Source of the DNA: Arenibacter sp. 6A1
Lineage (GTDB): Bacteria > Bacteroidota > Bacteroidia > Flavobacteriales > Flavobacteriaceae
DNA length: 64,000 bases
Assembly: GCF_012272855.1 (NCBI RefSeq)
Contig: NZ_JAAXCQ010000005.1
Span: 124,001-188,000 of the forward strand
Reading direction: 5' to 3'
In this document: positions 5,895-62,898 of the stretch, one piece after another
Position numbering within the stretch: the stretch's first letter is position 1
Layout of the letters: every line of letters starts with the position of its first letter
Notes under the pieces: model-generated
The model's database searches: none
Seen by the model: the letters and a program-made list of their open reading frames with translations, nothing else
What the model was told of the DNA's origin: nothing
Translations under genes and position numbers: made by a program

Positions 5895-6008
5895 GCGGTT
5901 AAGGCAATATAAATTTACCTATCCCATCCAAGGAATTAGCCTTGTTAAAAAACATAGGATTTTCTGTAGAACTTTTATCAAAAAAGTATCTATCGAACAA
6001 ACTATTTA

Positions 6009-25026: not shown

Positions 25027-25500
25027 TTGAAAAAAAAAATAACCTATATCACAATAGCAGTGGCGGTATGCCTACTGGTTGGATTTCTATCGAGTTTTGC
25101 CACACAATCCTCTATAAACAGCTGGTATGTAACGCTTAACAAGCCAAGTTTTAATCCCCCAAACTGGATTTTCGCTCCGGTATGGACCATCCTATATATT
25201 ATGATGGGCATTGCCGCCGGAATCGTATGGGCCAAAGGATTTTATCATATTTGGGTAAAAACAGCCCTCTACCATTTCTGCTTCCAACTGTTGCTAAACG
25301 CCCTTTGGAGCATCACCTTTTTTGGCTTTCAAAACACTTTAGGCGCCCTATTCATTATCATTGCCCTAATCGTTTTGTTAGGCTTCACCATAAAATGGTT
25401 TAGAATAGTGAACAAAACCGCGGCCCACCTATTAATCCCCTATTTTTTATGGCTTTGTTTTGCGGCCGTTCTAAATTTTAAAATCTGGGAATTAAACTAA
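25027..25500 (+). CDS. tspO: TspO/MBR family protein with a TTG start
   Basis: A 157-residue five-helix membrane protein of the TspO/peripheral benzodiazepine receptor family, which binds porphyrins and is linked to stress and tetrapyrrole handling. Typical segments are WYVTLNKPSFNPPNWIFAPVWTILY (shown in part: NWIFAPVW) and the Trp-rich LLNALWSITFFG. No ATG exists before residue 59. The frame begins at TTG (25027), which gives a sensible lysine-rich start followed by a first helix. It stands alone, divergent from mvaD. Confidence 0.88.
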   Translation: MKKKITYITIAVAVCLLVGFLSSFATQSSINSWYVTLNKPSFNPPNWIFAPVWTILYIMMGIAAGIVWAKGFYHIWVKTALYHFCFQLLLNALWSITFFGFQNTLGALFIIIALIVLLGFTIKWFRIVNKTAAHLLIPYFLWLCFAAVLNFKIWELN

Positions 25501-25814
25501 TTTTTTTAGATTTTTCCGCTATTCAATGTATTCCTAATCCCGGTATCCATTCGCACCATATTTTGGGCGTTCCCTCCTTCGTCGGTCGGGCCTTTAGCTA
25601 TATCCCTTGCGCTGCTGCGGGGATGCCGCCGCAGTCCCTAACGCGGGGTAGCAATGAACATTAAACAATATGGGAAGGGATTCGTTTATGTAAAATGGCA
25701 ACGTATATTTAATGGATCAATAAGTCATAACGCCCCGTAGTCCCGTATTTCTAAGATTAGGTATTGATATCTGATGCTGCTACCTACCTATTGGAAATTT
25801 ACTATCGCTAAGCC
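25501..25814. other. Convergent intergenic region holding repeat copy 1
   Basis: This 314-base gap lies between the ends of tspO and the DUF1697 gene. It holds copy 1 of the 82-bp repeat and, just after tspO, a run of T residues. I see no other gene or strong hairpin in it. Confidence 0.6.
25563..25644 (-). repeat. 82-bp dispersed element, copy 1
   Basis: Reverse complement of this segment matches copies at 42199-42280 and 62817-62898 with 5 and 7 mismatches. It begins (minus strand) GCGTTAGGGA and ends GGGAACGCCCAA. It lies between two converging genes, and its G/C content is clearly higher than the surroundings. Confidence 0.92.
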
Positions 25815-42198: not shown

Positions 42199-42280
42199 GC
42201 GTTAGGGACCGCGGCGGCATCCCCGCAGCAGCGCAAGGGATACAGCCAAGGGCCCGCCCGACGAAGGAGGGAACGCCCAA
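42199..42280 (+). repeat. 82-bp dispersed element, copy 2
   Basis: Matches copy 1 (inverted) with 5 mismatches and copy 3 with 6. Preceded by a run of seven T, as is copy 3. Located between the two terminators of converging genes, so probably not needed for ending either transcript. Confidence 0.92.
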
Positions 42281-42307: not shown

Positions 42308-42341
42308 AACAAAGGGCGCCTTTTGCAAGACACCCTTTGTT
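42308..42341 (-). terminator. Terminator of the symporter gene
   Basis: AACAAAGGG and CCCTTTGTT pair over nine bases around a 16-base loop; on the minus strand this is followed by GTTTTAT. It stands 18 bases past the symporter stop codon. Confidence 0.75.
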
Positions 42342-62816: not shown

Positions 62817-62898
62817 GCGTTAGGGAGCGCGGCGGCATCCCCGCAGCAAGGCAAGGGATATAGCCAAGAGCCCGACCGACGAAGGAGGGAACGCCCAA
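62817..62898 (+). repeat. 82-bp dispersed element, copy 3
   Basis: Matches copy 2 with 6 mismatches and copy 1 (inverted) with 7. A run of T residues precedes it. It lies in the 242-base gap between the converging phosphoesterase and tonB genes, where I see no other terminator. Confidence 0.92.

Follow-up and report, generated by a model that had tools for sequence, protein, structure and literature searches.

The repeat that occurs three times in the window (the whole 64,000-nucleotide stretch of Arenibacter sp. 6A1 DNA analysed here) is a GC-rich variant, which we call A-type, of the Flavo-1 family (RF01705), homologous to it in both sequence and structure. Flavo-1 is a known orphan family; what is new is its lineage-specific rise to more than 200 copies, and the strong purifying selection acting, in the copies shared, on a fold to which gene direction matters very little. 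The stems of the fold covary, the copies compared keep the same positions in two sister species, and slow evolution across the set is confined to the element itself. As to the mode of action, we see close to an even chance that this is a once-mobile folded element which multiplied in a single burst and has since been retained because it has a function at the level of DNA or nascent RNA.

The initial annotation had described three copies of 82 bp each (25563–25644, 42199–42280 and 62817–62898), with pairwise differences of 5, 6 and 7, that are much richer in G/C than their surroundings. It was accurate on all of these points, the GC contents being 0.65, 0.71 and 0.66 against 0.36–0.43 in the 1 kb around them. 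The core unit is 80 nt long, GCGTTAGGGA...GGGAACGCCC; the final two A's of the 82-base copies resemble flank. The core of copy 1 (25565..25644, minus strand) lies between ORF 3' ends at 25500(+) and 25815(-), that of copy 2 (42199..42278, plus strand) between 41700(+) and 42359(-), and that of copy 3 (62817..62896, plus strand) between 62757(+) and 63000(-); each copy has an orthologue in A. nanhaiticus. Besides the element, the gap around copy 2 contains a separate hairpin at 42308–42341, read by eye, with a 9-bp stem (AACAAAGGG...CCCTTTGTT).

An Rfam search of the window returned no matches at the gathering threshold (42 bits), and one A-type copy of the genome (locus L054) reaches 23.1 bits against RF01705, in the same register. 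The same genome holds a second form, the B-type, which is 88–92 nt long and scores 47.6–50 bits as Flavo-1 at three loci. We built a covariance model, R1, from a MAFFT alignment of 20 elements from other genera and 6 B-types, with zero A-types; its members differ from the Rfam seed, and the B-type of L001 was both scored by Rfam and included in R1. In the window R1 finds the three copies only (57.2, 51.0 and 51.0 bits; E 1.5e-10, 3.6e-9 and 3.8e-9 for copies 1 to 3), with nothing else up to E 10, and on the 275-kb contig C57 of this genome it finds exactly 15 elements, the weakest at 48.8 bits and the next match at 13.5. Because a model built without A-types detects all three copies, the window element is a Flavo-1 variant. 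The annotation's impression of a non-coding, intergenic family akin to elements common among flavobacteria was therefore right, and membership of a known RNA family, which it had raised, holds in substance although the Rfam threshold is missed.

The A-type shares with Flavo-1 (PMC2864571) the closing stem, the conserved GCGGCAUC/GAUAYAGC core, the register and the strand, and both occur in Bacteroidota. It differs in having a short GC-rich hairpin in place of the T6/A6 apical stem and an altered P3, in its score below gathering, in its more than 200 copies, and in a bias towards convergent gaps that is not seen in other genera. In the table of Weinberg et al. (2010; PMC2864571) Flavo-1 is marked 'y' for RNA and 'n' for cis-regulatory, and the relevant part of a 2022 review (PMC9029176) counts it among abundant sRNA families without function. 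No function is given in the passages of these two papers and of PMC9723704 that name Flavo-1, listed since 2010, and a tally of REPs in two Flavobacterium genomes (PMC12306157) carries no mention of it under the terms searched. A search of the literature on repetitive elements between convergent genes gave no match for such an element, one with the head fragment of the element gave only an unrelated match, and an A-type copy and one copy from genus g2 (probably Flavobacterium) had no match at E 0.01 in phage and plasmid records.

The predicted fold, formed by one strand, is a three-way junction with a closing stem P1, a long interrupted P2 that contains conserved G.A pairs, and a short P3. In copy 2 (all positions on the plus strand) the 5' arm of P1 (GCGUU, 42199..42203) pairs with the covariation-supported 3' arm (AACGC, 42272..42276, followed by CC), and its fifth pair is compensatory, UA/GC/AU. 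The 5' arm of P2a/P2b (42205..42210) pairs with 42250–42251 and 42253–42255, with both-side changes at four of the five pairs. The 5' arms of P2c and P2d with the conserved internal loop (GCGGCAUC, 42214..42221) lie opposite 42239–42246; of 74 elements from other genera 73 carry G18.A, and position 19 is G19.U/C. The apical hairpin (42222..42238) is highly variable, above all at the hypervariable bases 42230–42232 (among 44 orthologous pairs, element positions 32–34 have changed in 8, 13 and 8). The P3 hairpin (42257..42271) is placed by parse and by covariation in the alignment.

The stems of the element covary, giving a covarying consensus structure. In the R1 alignment 97.8% of cells are paired (12 are unpaired), and both partners have changed in 35 cells, against 9.2 in shuffles, none of 500 of which reaches 35; one-sided changes number 3. 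The number of pair types in this alignment is not above that of shuffles (13 versus 11.8). In a parse of 268 elements (291 less 23 that scored <5.5) P1.5 is UA, GC or AU, and P2a and P2b vary in concert; because complementarity served in this parse to pick the 3' arm of P1, the counts for P1 are tilted in favour of the model, whereas the MAFFT alignment made no such choice. Among elements of other genera, a set of close relatives with an effective sequence number of 2.4, model pairs make up five of the top nine of 1081 column pairs by corrected mutual information (ranks 1, 2, 4, 7 and 9), and three more of these nine (15-33, 20-28 and 10-38) face one another in internal loops. Among A-types, with an effective sequence number of only 1.1, P2b pairs rank 1 and 2 of 1081. 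What speaks against a simple structural account is that, of 18 P2b pairs changed between orthologues, only 4 still pair because both bases have changed; in the other 14 pairing is gained, lost or lacking. Folded as single sequences, both strands of the element fold no better than shuffles (z -0.14 to -1.12).

It is highly improbable that the element is simply a site bound as double-stranded DNA, by gyrase or a nucleoid protein for instance, and that its fold is incidental. Such a site would suit the near-free orientation of the element, its independence from neighbours and its sharp edges, all described below, but the far greater number of both-side than one-sided changes is unexpected for a plain duplex site. 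Since G.A pairs, which are not Watson-Crick pairs, are conserved at positions 13 and 18, and position 19 shows 188 G.T versus 2 A.C, there is a hint as to which strand folds; the strand signal is weak in the core stems, with 17 GT and 9 AC.

Genome-wide search, which the initial annotation had proposed, finds 221 places in the 4.67-Mb genome (113 forward, 108 reverse) where the 24-base head matches when 3 mismatches are allowed, far more than chance would give, a reversed-pattern control yielding 0. Across 18 Arenibacter genomes the head pattern is found 227 times here, 210 times in the sister species Arenibacter nanhaiticus CGMCC 1.8863, and 4–14 times in the other 16, a few of these low counts being chance matches. 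The two sister species thus show a jump from 4–14 to more than 200 copies. Of 397 sampled genomes of the family, 256 have a head match, Arenibacter sp. 6A1 leading with 229 and followed by genomes with 57, 52 and 38 (controls reach up to 4); among 395 sampled genomes of the phylum 89 have a match, none but Arenibacter sp. 6A1 exceeds 18, and counts outside the family are mostly at control level. From a high number in two of 18 genomes we infer gain in this lineage rather than loss elsewhere.

The copies compared have stayed in place since the two species parted. When C57 was compared in full with its A. nanhaiticus counterpart, C80, all 15 elements were at the same place and on the same strand, C80's two extra copies lying past the end of C57, and no degenerate fragments were found on these contigs. 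By position, the two species also share the three window copies and all 6 copies on another A. nanhaiticus contig (C40). On C57/C80, element sites differ at 49 of 1200 (4.1%) with no gaps, while 100-bp flanks differ at 642 of 2885 (22.3%) with a further 230 gap columns; fourfold sites in 180 genes of the same two species differ at 5986 of 25036 (23.9%). The compared copies therefore change about five times more slowly than adjoining DNA.

A larger set gives the same picture. From 63 candidate pairs whose flanks matched strongly, 46 were kept, 44 of them A-type, and in these 44 orthologous pairs 52 of 80 positions are unchanged, 30 of those outside the ascertained head. The A. nanhaiticus loci were picked by an exact 28-base head match, so that this set favours conserved heads; beyond the head (positions 29–80), the differences amount to 104 in 2288 comparisons (4.5%), with 30 of 52 positions unchanged, in agreement with C57/C80, where copies were found by profile. 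Positions 11, 12, 32–34, 53, 59, 65 and 66 have changed in 85 of 396 comparisons, near the neutral rate. Conservation ends at the edges of the element: divergence is 16–18% in the first five flanking bases and 17–28% further out. Orthologues differ on average at 2.9 of 80 positions (range 0 to 8), and non-orthologous copies at 6.41 within and 6.45 between genomes. Gene conversion or homogenisation is thus unsupported, copies at different loci being equally distant within and between genomes, and the distances argue for copies inherited vertically under purifying selection. Such selection, acting on the whole set of copies, is the best reading of their slow change, and they probably do something useful. 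In syntenic stretches of 11 other congeners (546 kb), R1 finds one element at E <=0.1, a B-type in genome G397, downstream of a TspO-like gene and at the same place and strand as window copy 1; judged by coordinates, G396 may have it as well.

A selfish repeat of the REP/BIME or MITE kind, without host function and with copies alike through a recent burst or gene conversion, would explain the copy jump, an intergenic position with both strands alike, and BIME-like pairing of types. We nevertheless consider it very unlikely, and for the contigs compared it is largely refuted. All 15 positions are shared while adjoining DNA has diverged by 22%, so the shared positions predate the species split; distances within a genome equal those between genomes; hypervariable positions in the very same copies run at a neutral-like rate; and neither degenerate copies on C57/C80 nor a link to RAYT were found.

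The pairing itself is regular. Among neighbours less than 3 kb apart there are 14 heads-in inverted pairs, each of one A-type and one B-type (two loci are counted in both species), versus 1 tails-in pair. They lie at L001, L009, L015, L030, L031, L053, L054, L226, L256 and L260 in this genome and at L137, L155 and L180 in A. nanhaiticus, with spacers of 87–1092 bp built from shared subrepeats, one of which is an imperfect palindrome around TGCAAATGCAACGACTTGCATTTGCA. The L031 spacer carries a short gene that is missing from the 97-bp spacer of its counterpart L180. As most loci were fetched around A-types, the paired share of B-types was judged on long stretches or stretches not chosen for an A-type, where 5 of 6 B-types have an A-type within 2 kb; most A-types have no B partner (59 A versus 4 B in 724 kb).

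REP, BIME and REPIN sequences with their RAYT transposases are high-copy, folded intergenic repeats made of short palindromes. The present element resembles them in being high-copy, folded and intergenic, with few copies in divergent gaps and two types in inverted pairs with variable spacers; it differs in being an 80-nt three-way junction, in lacking a RAYT association and in the slow change of its shared copies. A RAYT/IS200 transposase was considered as driver and rejected: PF01797, the sole transposase family searched, is found in 15 of 18 Arenibacter genomes, of which the two high-copy ones hold 4 and 1, so that its counts do not track copy number. The best TnpA loci of these two genomes have no common DNA match longer than 27 bp and no consistent flanking elements. 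Separately, two near-identical Y1-transposase-like genes stand in tandem at L062 and L063 (G000:C58:246.8–248.6 kb), the second with a different C-terminal end.

MITEs and other non-autonomous derivatives of insertion sequences are short and non-coding, with burst-like copy number, and in these respects the element is like them. It seems to depart from them in that its inverted ends span 5 bp only, that no empty site seen is clean, and that the PF01797 search gave no related transposase; gaps without the element differ by more than the element. One A-type copy that six congeners (G395, G399, G403, G406, G409 and G410) have in common shows this: where it is absent (G402, G400, G407 and G411) the adjoining DNA is absent too, so that comparison of orthologous gaps, also proposed in the initial annotation, reveals presence and absence but no clean empty site, with ~150–270 bp more missing. 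On the sister-species contigs compared no copy has moved, arisen or vanished, and the case for mobility is accordingly the copy jump. Of the annotation's suggestion of a non-autonomous mobile element, a mobile origin is what this jump suggests; no present-day movement is seen.

The annotation also placed the element always between converging genes, which holds for the window's three copies (an outcome with a chance of 14% at this genome's convergent share) but is a preference rather than a rule: of 116 placed copies of this genome, 60 are in convergent, 45 in tandem and 11 in divergent gaps. In 724 kb of this genome, in stretches chosen around known copies, 30 copies occupy 28 of 78 convergent gaps, 23 occupy 21 of 272 tandem gaps and 5 occupy 5 of 79 divergent gaps; the other 5 of the 63, close to the end of a stretch or contig, were left unplaced. 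The convergent bias is real in this genome. On C57, which was not chosen around copies, there are 6 copies per 31 convergent gaps, 6 per 105 tandem and 2 per 34 divergent (P = 0.04; 1 of 15 copies unplaced). ORFs below 130–150 aa that overlap an element (on C57, any overlapping ORF) were dropped before placing, and that no copy lies in a gene is to be read on this footing. In other flavobacterial genera 7 elements are in convergent, 41 in tandem (15 same, 26 opposite) and 21 in divergent gaps, with 5 of 74 unplaced, a convergent share not different from the C57 background (P = 0.17). As these genera show no such bias, the preference belongs to the amplified lineage; it fits the idea that surplus copies fare best in places where they upset no promoter. 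The annotation had envisaged a protein-binding mark at gene ends; for the family the element is not such a mark, as the convergent preference is not seen in other genera.

A bidirectional terminator or stabiliser of mRNA 3' ends between convergent genes is suggested by this occupancy of convergent gaps and by the position of the element within gaps: in convergent gaps of the two species (loci shared) the tail side is closer to a gene end in 63 of 92 copies, and in tandem gaps 30 of 45 copies are closer to the upstream stop. That both strands fold, though no better than shuffles, would also suit it. Nonetheless, we regard this role as quite unlikely, as the 5' side is T-rich and the 3' side A-rich, the reverse of an intrinsic terminator, and other genera show no convergent bias. 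Nor is substitution for terminators supported, since convergent gaps that contain the element are no less likely to have a terminator-like hairpin (21 of 31 versus 10 of 26 without it, in gaps of at least 100 bp net); over all convergent gaps hairpin density is 2.7 per kb with the element and 3.2 without. The terminator-like 3'-end RNA structure offered in the annotation thus finds no support.

A further possibility is that the element acts as RNA, each copy being a small RNA (Rfam's label is 'sRNA') or a UTR element, made from its own promoter or by read-through. The conserved G.A pairs and the G.U at position 19 point to one folding strand, and some loci in other genomes also fit. Six g2 copies (L080, L289, L290, L078, L280 and L311, in genomes G316, G324 and G174) lie ~160–380 bases 3' of a 5S rRNA on the same strand, the adjacency being called by Rfam for five and by element parse for L280, and a copy linked to bioB lies upstream of it in sense orientation at all 3 loci fetched. 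We still consider an RNA role unlikely. No own promoter is visible, there being no conserved block upstream in the 44 orthologous pairs, whose flanks diverge by 16–28% from the first five bases on both sides, and orientation in tandem gaps is nearly even (25 same, 20 opposite). In F. psychrophilum, according to the part of PMC9723704 that treats Flavo-1, matches are sense or antisense alike to transcribed regions, with many outside them, and there is no real functional clue. Placement at rRNA operon ends is likewise no rule: it is seen in g2, but 26 Arenibacter 5S loci, several of which end at contig ends, have no Flavo-1 by profile (Rfam was run on 20 of the 26).

Copies persist while their neighbours change. 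The copy shared by six congeners has outlasted the loss of one neighbouring gene (G403), truncation of the other (G409) and the addition of ~200 bp (G410). Apart from a few, gene names at these loci are read from sequence. A copy 3' of an acetate--CoA-ligase-like gene has this gene beside it in 8 of 8 fetched loci, the other neighbour being of five kinds. In g2, eight gaps with both neighbours orthologous retain the element across species, as in six loci where it lies 2–16 bp 3' of trpB, and two of these gaps hold it in opposite orientations in different species (L077 and L299 versus L088; L076 and L082 versus L276). Orientation is not wholly free, given the tail bias in convergent gaps.

The reading we prefer, a once-mobile element retained for function, could have come about as follows. 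A process akin to transposition, for which the folded strand was the substrate, would have spread the element in the common ancestor of the two species, promoter-free spaces, convergent gaps above all, tolerating it best, and the mobilising activity would later have ceased. The copies would now work as autonomous structured sites whose orientation matters little, and a putative host protein would bind them as extruded DNA hairpin or nascent RNA. Against this reading stand the absence of a mobilising enzyme and of a clean empty site from our findings, the convergent-gap orientation and a partner protein that is only putative. Also on this side of the balance are the few changed P2b pairs that still pair, a number of pair types no higher than in shuffles, the weak strand signal in core stems, and selection that is shown for the set while single orthologous pairs range from 0 to 8 differences. 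A bolder proposal, which we put forward tentatively as possible though doubtful, is that Flavo-1 is not an sRNA family but a structure-specific chromosomal site, a folded nucleic acid read by a conserved flavobacterial protein irrespective of the direction of transcription, which in one lineage reached more than 200 copies and in which purifying selection at individual loci fixes most bases. More than 200 near-identical, slowly changing copies in one genome make the function of Flavo-1 testable, and raise the question of which step (transcription, replication or chromosome topology) needs the copies and which protein reads the fold. The case also separates burst amplification from later selection to keep copies, which are usually confounded for repeats.

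Two minor observations concern congeners. In Arenibacter genomes of low copy number, several of the weaker matches to Flavo-1 are close to the end of a contig (e.g. G402:C8:297, G402:C12:296, G396:C35:46, G396:C67:46, G400:C24:33 and G408:C2:499), where they perhaps adjoin repeats that broke assembly. At L368 and L369, in two congeners, GC-rich repeats of the CCTGCC/GGCAGG type directly adjoin A-type copies.
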